Source: Leucothrix arctica
Lineage (GTDB): Bacteria > Pseudomonadota > Gammaproteobacteria > Thiotrichales > Thiotrichaceae
DNA: 64,000 bases
Reading direction: 5' to 3'
Assembly: GCF_003172895.1 (NCBI RefSeq)
Contig: NZ_QGKL01000004.1
Location: forward strand, 62,001-126,000
In this document: positions 1,641 through 7,974 of the stretch, piece by piece
Layout: each line of letters begins with the position of its first letter
Position numbering within the stretch: position 1 is the first letter of the stretch
Notes under the pieces: generated by a model
Databases searched by the model: none
Seen by the model: only the letters and a program-made list of their open reading frames with translations
Told to the model about the DNA's origin: nothing
Program-made: the position numbers and the translations under genes

Positions 1641-2534
1641 GTGTCTAATGCGTTGAAAGGTGATGTCTTAATCATCATCTCTACCCTACTCGCTTGCTTA
1701 GGTTGGTTCTTCTCCAAAGAAGTACTCAGTAGCATGTCGCCACTTCAGTTTATTAGCCTGAGATTTACCTGTGCAGGATTAATTTTGCTTTTGTTTTGCT
1801 GGCGCGCTTTCTCTGTCATTAAGCGACAAGACATTGTGCCCATCCTCACCTCAAGCCTATTTTTTACGACAGGTGTCACTATTTGGGTATTTGGGATGAC
1901 CTATGTCACCAATATGTCTGTTGGTGCATTTATTCTGAATATCAGCTTTTTACTAGTGCCCGTAATTGCCGTATTTTTTGGTGAACGTCCATCCAAACTA
2001 CTCTGGGTATCATTACCTATTGTACTGCTTGGGCTTGGCTGTTTGTTCTTAGAAAACGAATTCAAAATTGGCTTCGGCGAGTTTCTATTTATGATTGCAG
2101 CCGTCGTCTTTGCGCTGTTTTTCATATTAAATGGTCGGCTATCAAAACAGTATGCAACGTCAGTGCTGGTAACCAGTCAAATGCTGATTACCGGTTTTTG
2201 CGCACTCGTTGCATCCCTATTCATAGAAACATGGAGCTTTGACCACGCACCATCAATCTGGAGCATAGTGGTGGCAAGCATATTGATAACAAGCTGCTTG
2301 CGCTTCTCAATTCAAACATGGGGACAGAGCTTTGCCAGTGCTGGACACGCCTCTGTACTGATGACATTAGAACCTGTCTGGGTAGCCATATTTTCACTGT
2401 TATTCTTTAGTCAGAGTATGTCGCCACTACAAACTATCGGCTGTGCCTTGCTGTTTTTTGCGGTAGTACTCAGTCGCTCAGAGCCACTTTGGAAGAAACT
2501 GCGTCGATCAAAAGTGGTCGTTCAAACTAGCTAG
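1641..2534 (+). CDS. EamA/DMT-family permease
   Basis: A 297-residue inner-membrane protein with about ten hydrophobic segments in two internally similar halves, the arrangement of drug/metabolite transporters of the EamA (RhaT/YdcZ-like) type. The N-terminal half carries the usual sequence around LGWFFSKEVLSSMSPLQF, followed by many Leu/Ile/Phe-rich helices; the second half ends with a Lys/Arg-rich cytoplasmic tail. Such proteins export amino acids or other small metabolites, but the substrate cannot be told from sequence. Translation starts at a GTG; no stronger in-frame ATG matches the family start, and the ribosome site is weak. It ends 14 bp before the convergent NIF3-like gene. Confidence 0.85.
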   Translation: MSNALKGDVLIIISTLLACLGWFFSKEVLSSMSPLQFISLRFTCAGLILLLFCWRAFSVIKRQDIVPILTSSLFFTTGVTIWVFGMTYVTNMSVGAFILNISFLLVPVIAVFFGERPSKLLWVSLPIVLLGLGCLFLENEFKIGFGEFLFMIAAVVFALFFILNGRLSKQYATSVLVTSQMLITGFCALVASLFIETWSFDHAPSIWSIVVASILITSCLRFSIQTWGQSFASAGHASVLMTLEPVWVAIFSLLFFSQSMSPLQTIGCALLFFAVVLSRSEPLWKKLRRSKVVVQTS

Positions 2535-2548
2535 TAAAGCTAGATCAC

Positions 2549-2875
2549 TTAGTCCTCCAAACTCCACACATCATAAGCCACCTCTTCATAGGGGTGAGCT
2601 TGTTTCATTGCGACTAATACTTCTGGTAGTAGGCTGCGTAAACAGATGGTCTCGATGCGCTCTTCTGCAACTTCTTCTAGCGCACCAACCGTGCCGATAT
2701 GTGGGTTTGCACCGTCTTCTGGGAGGAAGCGGCCGATGCCTTTGGTTGAGAATGTGCAATGACTGTAGTTACTATCTTCTCGTTTTCCTGCGCCTGCGTT
2801 ACAGAGTGCTAGGCGGACTGCTTCGGCGTTTTCTTCTGGGACGAAGACGGCTATTTTTACGTATTTTGTTGGCAT
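2549..2875 (-). CDS. NIF3/YqfO C-terminal-like small protein
   Basis: A protein of about 108 residues matching the PII-like insert domain of NIF3/YqfO family proteins, found alone in many gammaproteobacteria. Hallmarks are the KIAVFVPEENAEAVR start, a GIGRF.P..GANPHIG segment, a Glu-rich EEVAEERIE stretch and the C-terminal HPYEEVAYDV motif. The biochemical role is not established. The reading frame is open for a further 40 codons upstream, but the protein family starts at the ATG at 2875 (MPTKYVKIAVF), and the upstream part looks like untranslated sequence. The gene is divergent from the DUF4143 ATPase; the space between them contains a phased repeat array. Confidence 0.75.
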   Translation of the reverse strand: MPTKYVKIAVFVPEENAEAVRLALCNAGAGKREDSNYSHCTFSTKGIGRFLPEDGANPHIGTVGALEEVAEERIETICLRSLLPEVLVAMKQAHPYEEVAYDVWSLED

Positions 2876-2948
2876 GGAAGCTCTCTTAGTGGTGTTTAAG
2901 TAATTTTTGCATAACCTCTCTGTAGTTGTACTTGAATAACTAAATCTA

Positions 2949-3036
2949 CAATTAGCCAGCTTGTTATTTTCAATTAGACGAAACAAAACTTTCAATTAGA
3001 CGAAACTATATTTACAATTAGACGAAGTTTTCTATC
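2949..3036 (+). repeat. Four 22-bp-phased direct repeats (CAATTAGACGAA core)
   Basis: CAATTAG begins at 2949, 2971, 2993 and 3015, exactly 22 bp apart. Units 2-4 share CAATTAGACGAA; unit 1 is degenerate (CAATTAGCCAG). The rest of each unit varies, so this is a phased array of conserved boxes rather than a perfect tandem repeat. A 22-bp step is close to two helical turns, so all boxes face the same side of DNA, as in iterons or cooperative operators. The array ends 16 bp before the start codon of the DUF4143 ATPase and about 75 bp from the start of the NIF3-like gene. It is probably a binding site for a regulator, possibly the ATPase itself; that is inference. Confidence 0.8.
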
Positions 3037-3052
3037 CGTTTGGTGACGATCA

Positions 3053-4309
3053 ATGACAACACAAGCAAAGCACTACCCTCGCTTCTCTAAATCTATCCTG
3101 CAAGATGCGATAGAAGACAGCCCTGTCATTCTCATTCACGGAACGCGCCAATGTGGCAAGACAACCTTAGCACTACAGCTTGGTGAAGCCCTTGGCTACC
3201 ACTACATTTCATTTGACGATGACCTACAGCGACAGGCCGCGTTGGCCGATCCTATCGGCTTCATACTAAGCTTGCCTGAGTACGTTATTTTGGATGAGGT
3301 ACAGCGTATCCCTGAGTTGTTTACCAGCATCAAAGCGTCTGTTGATAAAAACCGTAAAGCGGGTCGCTTTATCCTAACGGGTTCTGCCAATATTTTATTG
3401 CTGCCAAAGCTTGCTGACTCACTCGCAGGACGCATGGAGATCATTCACTTACGCCCTTTATCATGCGTGGAAACGAGTAACCAAAAGCCTAATTTTTTGA
3501 GCCAGTTGTTTGCATCGGATTTTGGTACGGCAACCAATAACAGCCAATACCGTCGCTTGGGCGAGTCACTTGCAGAGACGATCGTTAAAGGTGGATACCC
3601 TGCGGCACTAGCCAGACCTACTGAAAAACGACGCGCTAATTGGTACAGGGATTACATCACGACCATTGTTCAGCGTGATGTACAAGACTTAACACGCATT
3701 CAAAAACTTGAGATGCTACCTCGCTTATTAAGTATGGCTGCTGGGCAAACTTCTCGTTTATTCAATGCGTCTAACCTTGGTGCACCCTTTGCACTCAGTG
3801 CGCCAACGATTCGAGAGTATTTAACACTATTACAGCAAGTCTTTTTGATTGAGCAGCTACAACCTTGGCACAGTAACCGACTCAGTCGATTAATCAAAAC
3901 ACCCAAGTTACACCTTGCAGATACTGGGCTTGCTTGTGCATTGCTTGGCGTCACTAGCGACATGCTCTGGCAAGACAGAGCACTCCTTGGTCAATTACTG
4001 GAAACCTTTATTTATCAAGAACTGCGAAAGTACGCAGACTGGCACGAGCAACAACTGAGCTTTTATCACTTCCGCAATAAAGACAAAGTGGAAGTCGATA
4101 TTGTGATTGAGCAAGGGCTCAAGGTAGCAGGTATTGAAATCAAAGCGGCTGCCACTGTGACCAAAAGCGACTTCAAAGGCCTGAGCAAACTAAGAGACGC
4201 GATTGGCGAACAGTTTGCAGCAGGCGTGGTATTTTATGATGGCGAGAGTATTGTGCCGTTTGGGGACAAGTTATTTGCTGTGCCTGTTAGTGTGCTAGTT
4301 CCATTATGA
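3053..4309 (+). CDS. AAA ATPase with C-terminal DUF4143 (COG1373 type)
   Basis: A 418-residue P-loop ATPase of the COG1373 family. Walker A is residues 30-37 (GTRQCGKT), Walker B is VILDEVQ at 78-84 with Asp81-Glu82, and a sensor TGSAN follows near residue 103. The middle carries a winged-helix-like segment (APTIREYLTLLQQVFLIEQL), and the C-terminal DUF4143 contains the nuclease-like FRNKDKVEVDIVIE...GIEIKAA pattern, resembling PD-(D/E)XK folds (Asp, then E-x-K). These proteins are common accessory genes in mobile or defence contexts; their cellular role is not settled. The gene stands alone on the plus strand, preceded by a phased repeat array and followed by the convergent TIR-NACHT gene. 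It is full length for the family. Confidence 0.85.
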   Translation: MTTQAKHYPRFSKSILQDAIEDSPVILIHGTRQCGKTTLALQLGEALGYHYISFDDDLQRQAALADPIGFILSLPEYVILDEVQRIPELFTSIKASVDKNRKAGRFILTGSANILLLPKLADSLAGRMEIIHLRPLSCVETSNQKPNFLSQLFASDFGTATNNSQYRRLGESLAETIVKGGYPAALARPTEKRRANWYRDYITTIVQRDVQDLTRIQKLEMLPRLLSMAAGQTSRLFNASNLGAPFALSAPTIREYLTLLQQVFLIEQLQPWHSNRLSRLIKTPKLHLADTGLACALLGVTSDMLWQDRALLGQLLETFIYQELRKYADWHEQQLSFYHFRNKDKVEVDIVIEQGLKVAGIEIKAAATVTKSDFKGLSKLRDAIGEQFAAGVVFYDGESIVPFGDKLFAVPVSVLVPL

Positions 4310-4431
4310 AACAGCCCTCAATACCGAGTGCAAAATCAAAACACTTATACACAACCACAGCTATTTTACCGGATGACCCGATCCCGAAGGGCTTTTAAAG
4401 AATATCAGAAGACAGCAATATTTGGGGTACG

Positions 4432-4455
4432 AAAATCATCCGCCGCTGCGCGGCG
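4432..4455 (-). terminator. Possible weak terminator after the TIR-NACHT-FGE gene
   Basis: CGCCGC at 4441-4446 and GCGGCG at 4450-4455 form a six-pair GC-rich stem with a three-base loop. Read on the minus strand, downstream of the stop at 4481, the stem is followed by GATGATTTT, a poor U-tract. It may serve as a terminator. Confidence 0.3.
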
Positions 4456-4480
4456 AAACAGTGGGACGGTGCTCAGTAGA

Positions 4481-7279
4481 TCAGTGATCAGAAACGGGAG
4501 GAAAACAACACACTAAACGAAAACCCAGATGGTAGTACCGATGCTGTGGAAGCTTGAAGGAGCGACAAGTAGCACGACAGTCCTGTGAATCGAAGCCCCA
4601 AGAGCTGCCGCGAACAACACGACTATCATCGGATAGGTCGGGGGTAACCATTGCAGTTTCGCTCTGCTTATTGAGACACCACTCCCAAACATTGCCACTC
4701 ATATCCATCACTTCAAAAGGAGACTTGGCAAGCGGGTAGACACCAATCGCACATGTCTCATCTATGTTGAATTCACCAACTTTCTTATGATTCCAAGTTT
4801 CATTAATATTAGCATAACCTGAAATATACTCATCTCCCCAGGGGTATTCTTTACCTTGAGTCCCTCTAGCTGCCTTTTCCCACTGCTGTTCAGTTGGCAG
4901 TCGAATGTCCTTACCAGTTTCAACAGACAACCAGCGGCAAAATGCTATTGCTTCATAAAAATCAACATTCTCAACTGGGCGATTACTCTCTTTCCATCGA
5001 TGTTTAGGTAGTTCATCTTCTTTTTGTAAACCTTCCCACCACTGCTCATTCTCATAACCACCGGCATCGACAAATGCATGAAACTGCCGATTAGTCACCG
5101 GAAACCGACTGACCTCAAAAGCATCTAAACTAAGTGCTTGCTGCTCTTCTTTCTCACCATAGATAAATTCACCGGCTGATACTTCCAACCAATGAATATC
5201 AGGTAAGCCCAATTCATTTAGACCAATACCAGAGCGCTCATCCCAATCCAACCATGCAAGTGTTGTACTAATAGCATGACGCTCATGAGGATGAGGATAG
5301 TTACGAACGTCGGTAATAGCCGCTTGCCATACTGCCTTATAACTGGAAAACAATGCTTCTTTCTGATCTAGTAGATTTTGGTCACGTGCGATTTCAAAGG
5401 CGAGTTTGGGGTTGCCTTCAGCTAACCATATTAAGAAGATTAAAGGGTTCGATTCATAATCTGCTGCAAGTTTTGCGGCCTCTTCCCAGCCATTCGGTTC
5501 CCACCAATTCTTTGGCAACCAAAGATCAGACGCTTTTAGTCCATTTTTAATACGCTCCCCGAAGCTTTGTGCGGTGAAAAACTCTTGAAGTAATTGATGA
5601 GAAAAACGCACATTATCTTTGGTCAAATCCAGCAAACTTGCCGCTTCTGAAAACTCAAGGCTCGCTAATGGCATGATGTCCTCAGCAATCTCACGCGATA
5701 ATATAGTTCTAACCCCCTTCATTGAGTCGGTCAAACATTGCAACTGCCAAGCTAATTCTTCTAAATCATTTTGTAGCGTATCTCGATCGGCTTTTGAGTA
5801 ATGGTTTTCTGGACGAGCCTCCGTTTCGCGATAGATCAGATCCTCAACAAACTCGCCAAATAACTCAATACGACTTTCAGGTAACTGTTGATGCTTATAG
5901 TATATTTCCACCATCAGATAGAGAAGGTAGGGATTACCAGCCAGTTTAATCATACTACGAGGATCATCTAAGCAGGCTCTTCTGGCGCTACCCTCTAATA
6001 GAATTTCACCTTTCCATTCCTCTGGTATTTCTTTTAGCGTCCAAAAGTCTTCCCAATGCTCCTGATAACCTTCTGATTTCCACTTTTCCCAAATCTTTCG
6101 TATGCCGTCACCACCCGCTAACTGCCAAAACAACTTGTCTGCCATATCAGACTCAGCAGCATCACCACCAAAGTAGTTATGAAGAAAGTCATAAACCCGC
6201 TGCGGATCAAGTGGTTCAATCGTCAGTCGGTCAAGTTCTTGCTCTAACGGTCCACGATAATCACGCTTGCGGCAGGTCAGTAACACCTCTTCGCAAGGGT
6301 AGTTTTTCAACCATTCACGCACCTGTGGCAGCTTTGCTTCACGCTGGTCAAAGGGAATTTCATTCAGGGCATCAAACAGCGGCAATATGCGCTTTGCTTG
6401 GTATAGCGTATCGAACGATTCAGCCAAACCATCCAGTTGCGATAACACAAAGTCGTGCAATAACAGCGCTGGATCATCCCAACGGTTTAACGGAATCACA
6501 ACGGGAATCGCTTGCTCGCCATCGCTCAAAGCCAATTGCGCTTGTTCTGCGGCAATACGCCATAGGGAAAAGGTCTTACCAGCACCCGGCTCACCTAATA
6601 TGACGAGGCGTTTATGTTGTCTAAACGCAGCGATAATATCGTCATGTTCGGTACATTCACCCTGTGGGTCTAAGGGTTCGTCATAGCGCGTTTGTTTAAG
6701 GTGGCGTAAGCGTGGTGACATCGCAGCAACGGCAACTCGTTTTCGCTCTTTGCGGTATTCACCGGCTAATGGTGCGTAGACTTTACTGGCAAATGCTAAA
6801 GCACGGTCGTCGTTGTCTTGTAACAGTTTATTGAGATAGTCCGTTTCTGCTTGGCGTTGTTTTTCTGGTGAGGTGTCAGGGAGCGTACTTCTTATTTCAT
6901 CCAGAAGACTTAGCCAATTAGACTCTTTAGCCTCACCAAACAATGCTAGACCTTGAAGGTCACAGATTTGGAAAGGCAAATCCCCTTCGCTGGCCAGTAC
7001 GGGAATAATCAAAGCCTCTACTCTGGAAGCCATGATGTATTCTTTTTCCACCCAAGGCCGATCATGAGAAGCTGGAGAAACCACGGAAATCATTATCTTA
7101 CAGTGCTCAACACCGTCTGATAGACGCCTTATCCAACGCTGACCTAGTCGGATACGATGCTCATCCAAAAATGCGGGAATGTTCTCATCTTTCAAGCGCT
7201 GATAGAGCTCACGAGCAAGCGCTTGACCACTGGCTGCATCACGAGCATAACTAATAAAAACTGGTGGAATTTCTGACAT
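4481..7279 (-). CDS. TIR-NACHT (STAND) NTPase with C-terminal FGE-sulfatase-like domain
   Basis: A 932-residue three-part protein. Residues 1-130 are a TIR domain (VFISYARDAASG start); Glu80 in WVEKE sits where the catalytic NADase glutamate lies in SARM1-type TIRs. Residues about 215-380 are a NACHT-type STAND NTPase: Walker A 229-236 (GEPGAGKT), Walker B ILPLFDALNE with Asp303 and Glu307, and sensor LLTCR at 333-337. A helical region follows. Residues 695-925 are a formylglycine-generating-enzyme-like (C-type-lectin fold) domain ending in HLGFRLV; the catalytic Cys pair of true FGEs is not evident, so it probably binds rather than modifies. The build (NADase effector, NTP switch, variable-type sensor) is that of bacterial NLR-like immune proteins; anti-phage function is inferred. 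The Fic gene lies 35 bp upstream on the same strand. There is no clear Shine-Dalgarno, and a TATAAT at 7285-7290 could give a nearly leaderless mRNA. Confidence 0.87.
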   Translation of the reverse strand: MSEIPPVFISYARDAASGQALARELYQRLKDENIPAFLDEHRIRLGQRWIRRLSDGVEHCKIMISVVSPASHDRPWVEKEYIMASRVEALIIPVLASEGDLPFQICDLQGLALFGEAKESNWLSLLDEIRSTLPDTSPEKQRQAETDYLNKLLQDNDDRALAFASKVYAPLAGEYRKERKRVAVAAMSPRLRHLKQTRYDEPLDPQGECTEHDDIIAAFRQHKRLVILGEPGAGKTFSLWRIAAEQAQLALSDGEQAIPVVIPLNRWDDPALLLHDFVLSQLDGLAESFDTLYQAKRILPLFDALNEIPFDQREAKLPQVREWLKNYPCEEVLLTCRKRDYRGPLEQELDRLTIEPLDPQRVYDFLHNYFGGDAAESDMADKLFWQLAGGDGIRKIWEKWKSEGYQEHWEDFWTLKEIPEEWKGEILLEGSARRACLDDPRSMIKLAGNPYLLYLMVEIYYKHQQLPESRIELFGEFVEDLIYRETEARPENHYSKADRDTLQNDLEELAWQLQCLTDSMKGVRTILSREIAEDIMPLASLEFSEAASLLDLTKDNVRFSHQLLQEFFTAQSFGERIKNGLKASDLWLPKNWWEPNGWEEAAKLAADYESNPLIFLIWLAEGNPKLAFEIARDQNLLDQKEALFSSYKAVWQAAITDVRNYPHPHERHAISTTLAWLDWDERSGIGLNELGLPDIHWLEVSAGEFIYGEKEEQQALSLDAFEVSRFPVTNRQFHAFVDAGGYENEQWWEGLQKEDELPKHRWKESNRPVENVDFYEAIAFCRWLSVETGKDIRLPTEQQWEKAARGTQGKEYPWGDEYISGYANINETWNHKKVGEFNIDETCAIGVYPLAKSPFEVMDMSGNVWEWCLNKQSETAMVTPDLSDDSRVVRGSSWGFDSQDCRATCRSFKLPQHRYYHLGFRLVCCFPPVSDH

Positions 7280-7314: not shown

Positions 7315-7974
7315 TTAAGCTTTTGCTTCTAGCTCTCCAACAATCATCAACTGCGTATCTAACATAGACTCCGCAATAAACTGCAAAAACGGCACTATAT
7401 TACCCGTATCTGCTGCTGACAAGGCCTGCAAATAAACACGCCTTTTAGCATTACGCACGATCACTGGCGTATAGGCTTGCATCAACAGCACAAGATTCAT
7501 CAATATACGCGCACCACGCCCATTACCATCGTCAAACGGATGAATCCGCACCATATTATAATGCGCGATCCCTGCAATAATGACAGGGTGATGTTTGTCT
7601 TTGGACTCATTGACCCACTCACAAAGTTGCTGCATTTCCAGCGGCACTTGTAGTGGTTCTACATAATGATGAATCGAGCCGTCTTGCTGAAGTACATGGT
7701 TGGGCTGTGACTTATACTGCCCCGGTGTTGCTGGCTTTTGTACTCGCTGTCCATTGGTATCTAACGCAGGTGTAGACTTAACACCTACCAGTAACAGCGC
7801 GTTGATTTCTTTTATCAGACTTTCACTGATGTCACGCTTCTGAGCCACCACATCAAACAACAGATCGATAGCTTCGGCATGGTTACGTGCATCCAAAAAG
7901 TCTTTGAGTGGCTTCCCTTCTACTGTCAGACCTTTCTGTAAGAAGAAGATTGCTTCACCAAGCGTCAATTTCAC
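7315..7974 (-). CDS. Fic-family protein, N-terminally short
   Basis: A 219-residue Fic-fold protein. The complete catalytic loop HPFDDGNGR is at 145-153, with the expected preceding helix (IIAGIAHYNMVRI); such proteins transfer AMP or other nucleotides to target proteins. The start is abnormal: the family normally has about 50-100 residues before this point, ending in an inhibitory (S/T)xxxE(G/N) helix just before the L-T-L-x-E segment. Here translation would begin at a GTG giving MKLTLGEAIFF, directly after an in-frame TAA, without a Shine-Dalgarno. It therefore lacks the auto-inhibitory helix, or the gene has been broken by a small deletion. A short out-of-frame reading frame just upstream resembles a missing N-terminus. 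It is the first gene of a pair with the TIR-NACHT-FGE gene. Confidence 0.75.
   Translation of the reverse strand: MKLTLGEAIFFLQKGLTVEGKPLKDFLDARNHAEAIDLLFDVVAQKRDISESLIKEINALLLVGVKSTPALDTNGQRVQKPATPGQYKSQPNHVLQQDGSIHHYVEPLQVPLEMQQLCEWVNESKDKHHPVIIAGIAHYNMVRIHPFDDGNGRGARILMNLVLLMQAYTPVIVRNAKRRVYLQALSAADTGNIVPFLQFIAESMLDTQLMIVGELEAKA

Follow-up and report, generated by a model that had tools for sequence, protein, structure and literature searches.

A 64,000-nucleotide stretch of the Leucothrix arctica genome (contig NZ_QGKL01000004.1, positions 62,001 to 126,000 of the forward strand; hereafter the window, whose own numbering is used) contains a gene for a 418-residue AAA_14-DUF4143 ATPase (3053..4309, forward strand) that is preceded by an array of phased direct repeats. 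Four boxes lie upstream of the gene, all on the forward strand and with a period of exactly 22 bp: a degenerate box, CAATTAGCCAGC (2949..2960), followed by three boxes identical over 12 bp, CAATTAGACGAA (2971..2982, 2993..3004 and 3015..3026). No other tandem array was found in the window (TRF score 90 for this one), and the coordinates of the boxes confirm the description given by a reading of the letters alone (the sequence-only reading), namely three identical boxes and one degenerate box in 22-bp phase. The distance of 16 bp to the start codon given there is correct only if the whole 22-bp unit is counted; 26 bp separate the end of the last 12-bp box from the ATG at 3053.

Single boxes (up to two mismatches) occurred nine times in the window against a shuffle mean of 6.4. 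With no excess of single boxes, the significance of the array comes from three boxes in exact phase. The 10-mer ATTAGACGAA was found 21 times in the host genome and its reversed control 18 times, and the paired CAATTAGACGAA array was present at the ATPase locus only; a looser paired pattern added one further site, at a DUF4143 paralogue. A host regulon for the box was rejected, the 10-mer not being enriched elsewhere in the genome and the paired arrays being confined to DUF4143 genes. A structured RNA or CRISPR was also discarded, with no Rfam match in 2500-4600.

Both Pfam domains of the ATPase scored above the gathering threshold (DUF4143, 8.1e-49, 165.9 bits, cut-off 28.1; AAA_14, 2.4e-29, 102.4 bits, cut-off 27), and PADLOC assigned the protein to the candidate defence family PDC-S01 (PDLC04790; 2.7e-163, 541.6 bits). 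PDC-S01, an ATPase with a PD-(D/E)XK domain, is described as ranking fourth in frequency among putative prokaryotic defences, with ~39,000 systems detected, and anti-phage validation is pending for most candidates of this type (PMC12988326). The AlphaFold2 model (predicted local distance difference test score 90) shows a nucleotide-binding domain and then a winged helix, a STAND-type fold. In VIA-align comparisons the model matched 2qen (Z 15.2; 4.3 Å over 255 residues), 2fna (14.3), and plant NLRs and CED-4 (~12-13), and MalT (8bob_C) was among the fold matches. The Walker A region (GTRQCGKTT, residues 30-38; 3140..3166) has G30, R32, G35, K36 and T38 invariant in the alignment. Across 44 aligned sequences the GxRxxGKxT motif, the DE pair (81-82), D349, E362 and K364 are invariant, and the ATPase and nuclease motifs are intact. 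The last three residues (D...ExK) mark a PD-(D/E)XK-like nuclease core (3977..4144), in agreement with the published architecture (PMC12988326). The winged-helix segment (residues 219-269; 3707..3859), with helices at 219-231, 239-246 and 250-262 and a strand at 266-269 in the model, is the candidate DNA-binding part, and a conserved basic stretch (R279, K282 and K285) lies just after it. Genes for a TIR-NACHT-FGE-sulfatase protein of 932 residues (4481-7279, reverse strand) and a Fic protein (7315-7974, reverse strand) adjoin the ATPase gene, so that the stretch resembles a small defence cluster.

Distribution of the array

Scanning a set of genomes with one representative per species gave 57 loci with relatives of the ATPase, and upstream statistics were computed on 52 homologues. 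Nearly all full-length close relatives with readable upstream DNA had 3-9 same-orientation CAWTYRGMCGA boxes 5' of the gene; one close relative (L039) had no recognisable array. The hosts in the 57-locus scan span several phyla and include Gammaproteobacteria, Planctomycetota, Rhodothermales, Lentisphaeria, Binatia, Dehalococcoidia and Bryobacterales, and plasmid homologues (Mesorhizobium, Tateyamaria, Marinobacter and Rhizobium) also showed, by eye, box-like repeats upstream. In a Binatia genome (L037) nine boxes with a period of exactly 23 bp, mostly identical 23-bp units, lie upstream of position 5001.

When the 160 bp around the start of the 52 homologues were compared by autocorrelation with control stretches of the same loci, peaks appeared at 22 bp (z 21.7) and 23 bp (z 16.8), and again at twice these periods, 44 bp (z 15.3) and 46 bp (z 8.1), the remaining periods staying within an absolute z of about 6. 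On the protein tree the 22-bp spacing corresponds to one clade and the 23-bp spacing to the other clades, with a single change (100% support in the Shimodaira-Hasegawa-like approximate likelihood ratio test; 0/500 shuffles as low). The type of array tracks the protein clade, not the host. One 22-bp duplication is cheap, but an origin of the array by chance or neutral tandem duplication is refuted by the autocorrelation and the box comparison, sequence and phase being conserved over widely different bacteria, and we give it a negligible probability.

No neighbouring gene recurred in more than four of the 52 loci, save the ATPase itself and its antisense or overlapping frames. Type I restriction-like genes adjoin only 3-4 of them, and a co-inherited replication initiator was not found among the neighbours. 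Because no neighbour gene is co-inherited with the array, the ATPase is the sole candidate trans-factor. On the 3' side of the gene the boxes showed no enrichment, with four against an expected two, and a role as transposon ends was rejected on this count. The same counts bear on the proposal that the ATPase-nuclease acts on the array DNA itself, as an iteron, mobility or nuclease-target site serving replication, transposition or self-marking, with the promoter position secondary. The PD-(D/E)XK-like core of the protein, the patchy distribution of the gene and its presence on plasmids, and the likeness of 22-bp direct repeats to plasmid iterons are consistent with such a role. We nevertheless consider it unlikely, as boxes are not enriched 3' of the gene, no replication gene recurs nearby and the last box departs from the others in a way that fits a putative -10 element (see below).

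The association was also analyzed from box to gene, by a blind search for paired boxes in ~670 Proteobacterial genomes (369 of the class and 299 of the phylum). The strict pair was found in 3 of the 369 class genomes, every match lying directly 5' of a DUF4143 gene, and the reversed control gave none; the looser pair matched in 11 of the 299 phylum genomes, and its reversed control in three, with one match each. Among the correctly spaced intergenic arrays of the looser search, seven stand before the gene, including two from the window's genome, one stands before a decayed copy of it (L204) and one is cut by the contig end (L206). Two matches spaced by 21 bp (L202 and L203) appear coincidental. 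The sequence-only reading had proposed to look for the box ahead of such genes elsewhere, and the association held from gene to array in the relatives and from array to gene in the blind searches.

Two-box patterns on eight viral contigs that lack the gene were considered as phage decoy arrays and dropped as chance: the CAATTRGMCGA pattern and its complemented control were equally frequent (5 and 5), and three of the eight cases appear, by eye, to be coding. On one viral contig (L193, 6596-6631, reverse strand) two full-consensus boxes at 22 bp overlap the end of a reading frame that resembles ribonucleotide reductase, a pair that is probably due to chance given an equally frequent control pattern.

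Arrays of other DUF4143 subfamilies

There are 13 DUF4143 matches in the genome to which the window belongs. One of these paralogues (L063) has a 23-bp array with a related box and groups with a locus of another genome (L049); a second (L066), grouping with L051, has a 22-bp array of another box, and the boxes of L066 and L051 both read CTCG..TTA.G. Arrays with a 33-bp period and related boxes precede L069 (AAAACACCC), L070 (AAGACACCC) and, in another genome, L245 (AAAACACCC). In the ~45 bp up to the start codon of a further same-genome paralogue (L064), we observed a perfect palindrome, GTGTAAAATCGTCCA-GTTGG-TGGACGATTTTACAC, with box-like arms. Upstream of L065 and L128 there are 32-bp arrays whose boxes have inverted halves (TTCCAAA...TTTGGAA in L065; GGAATAAATTCC in L128).

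A further reading, in which the operator serves another regulator whose gene lies elsewhere in the host, seems improbable to us. It would accord with the winged helix of some STAND proteins, which makes no DNA contact, and with the fact that we only infer binding of the ATPase to the array. It is contradicted by the box following the gene into Planctomycetota, Binatia, Dehalococcoidia and other hosts, by the lack of a second co-inherited gene and by the same-genome paralogues, each of which has a different box.

Promoter-like elements and the proposed autoregulation

The array of the window overlaps a putative promoter on the forward strand. A weak -35 element, TTTCAA (2990..2995; 3/6 to consensus), whose position is conserved in the 22-bp clade, is followed after 17 bp by a putative -10 element, TACAAT (3013..3018), and transcription would be expected to start near 3025. 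The third box covers part of the putative -35 element and the spacer, and the last box covers part of the putative -10 element as well as the predicted start site. Members of the 22-bp clade have TTTACA[CA]TT in the last box and TTTCAATT in the others, and the TTTCAA of the penultimate box lies 17 bp before the TACA[CA]T -10-like element of the last box. TA occupies hexamer positions 1-2 in 23/29 last boxes versus 12/73 other boxes (p 4e-9); the change in the last box thus places TA at the first two positions of the -10-like hexamer. In the 23-bp clade the start codon often lies 6-8 nt past the corresponding hexamer, so that such messages would be leaderless if the predicted starts are correct. 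The array of the window covers a conserved promoter-like pair, with promoter and start predicted from sequence.

We consider it likely that the array is a helically phased, negative-autoregulatory operator of the STAND-type ATPase-nuclease (AAA_14-DUF4143, PDC-S01). Each box would hold one of several ATPase monomers, which would line up head-to-tail along a single face of the DNA at intervals of two helical turns, perhaps making contact through the winged helix. The bound ATPase would cover the -35 and -10 elements of its own promoter and keep expression low, and repression would be lifted by the ATP state or by infection. A head-to-tail assembly would suit the array better than a symmetric dimer, because the boxes are asymmetric and all point in one direction. 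Measured from the predicted start near 3025, two boxes have their centres at ~-26 and ~-4, which would be repressing positions.

The alternative of positive autoregulation, with the array serving to recruit RNA polymerase or to activate the promoter, would account for the weakness of the -35-like element and draws on the MalT fold match (8bob_C), MalT being a STAND activator bound to repeats. The boxes at ~-26 and ~-4 nevertheless fall in the polymerase footprint, where a bound protein normally blocks, and activation has in our judgement a low probability.

Several observations weigh against an autoregulatory operator. (i) A generic promoter scan made no call of the putative promoter, whose -35 element is the weak match given above; (ii) the TA signature is weak in the 23-bp clade (6/14 last boxes, p 0.05); (iii) the winged helix of STAND proteins is often regulatory, not DNA-binding; (iv) two intergenic two-box arrays of the looser search (L207 and L212, position 1501) have no DUF4143 gene behind them and may be remnants or solo sites; and (v) phased arrays are sparse in the wider family. 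Their enrichment there counts in favour of the operator: a strong repeat at 22, 23, 32 or 33 bp was found at 13/72 non-orthologous DUF4143 genes and at 0/329 control genes, this period set having been picked after part of the data had been seen (any-period enrichment, p 6e-5), and a small fresh set of DUF4143 genes gave 2/17 (15/89 in total), leaving 74/89 distant DUF4143 genes with no phased array by the repeat test. Given these counts, arrays are enriched in the family yet far from universal.

These data suggest that negative autoregulation is the best-supported mechanism, in which we infer binding and repression by the ATPase at a predicted start. The multi-copy operator and the autoregulation put forward by the sequence-only reading gain support from the overlap with the promoter-like pair and from an array that travels with the ATPase gene only; its iteron option loses ground, with no co-inherited replication initiator and an array on the gene's own putative promoter region.

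Relation to known systems and significance

The closest described regulatory analogue is RptR, which represses its own phage-defence-island promoter via three direct repeats, two of them overlapping the -10 box; it is a dedicated homodimeric repressor, and its 9-bp repeats contain a 6-bp palindrome (PMC12255303). At the ATPase gene the direct repeats would likewise lie over the gene's own promoter, but the boxes there are asymmetric and two turns apart, and the sole co-inherited protein is the ATPase-nuclease itself. Plasmid iterons, such as the 22-bp repeats of R6K, are likewise phased direct repeats, and the winged-helix protein that binds them can also control its own gene. The ATPase locus differs in having no initiator or origin, and its array lies over a putative promoter. 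The STAND and MNS-clade ATPases (2qen, 2fna, NLR, CED-4, AVAST5 filaments and MalT) share with the ATPase the order of nucleotide-binding domain and winged helix, but the protein of the window has an additional DUF4143 nuclease-like domain and no sensor repeats.

No report of upstream arrays or regulation for AAA_14-DUF4143, COG1373, PF13635 or PDC-S01 was found in the searched literature, which did not include most subscription journals or bioRxiv and in which the sole hit for DUF4143 was a paper that mentions it once. Both the protein family and operators made of direct repeats have been described before; no description was found of their pairing, of the two- or three-turn phasing or of the wide conservation.

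A broader proposal, which we hold to be rather unlikely, is that the arrays serve the whole family: each DUF4143 subfamily would have a box of its own, repeated every two (22-23 bp) or three (32-33 bp) turns, on which the STAND ATPase would polymerise head-to-tail. The promoter-bound filament would be a silent, poised nuclease effector, and loss of the filament would both derepress the gene and arm the protein. The arrays suggest that the sequence and spacing of the boxes could serve to classify the subfamilies. A conserved DNA site at its own promoter would provide a biochemical handle on PDC-S01: a specific ligand, a DNA-binding assay, a test of ATP-dependent assembly and a reporter of the trigger. 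PDC-S01 is reported to be among the commonest putative defence genes of bacteria and archaea, which is why such a handle would matter.
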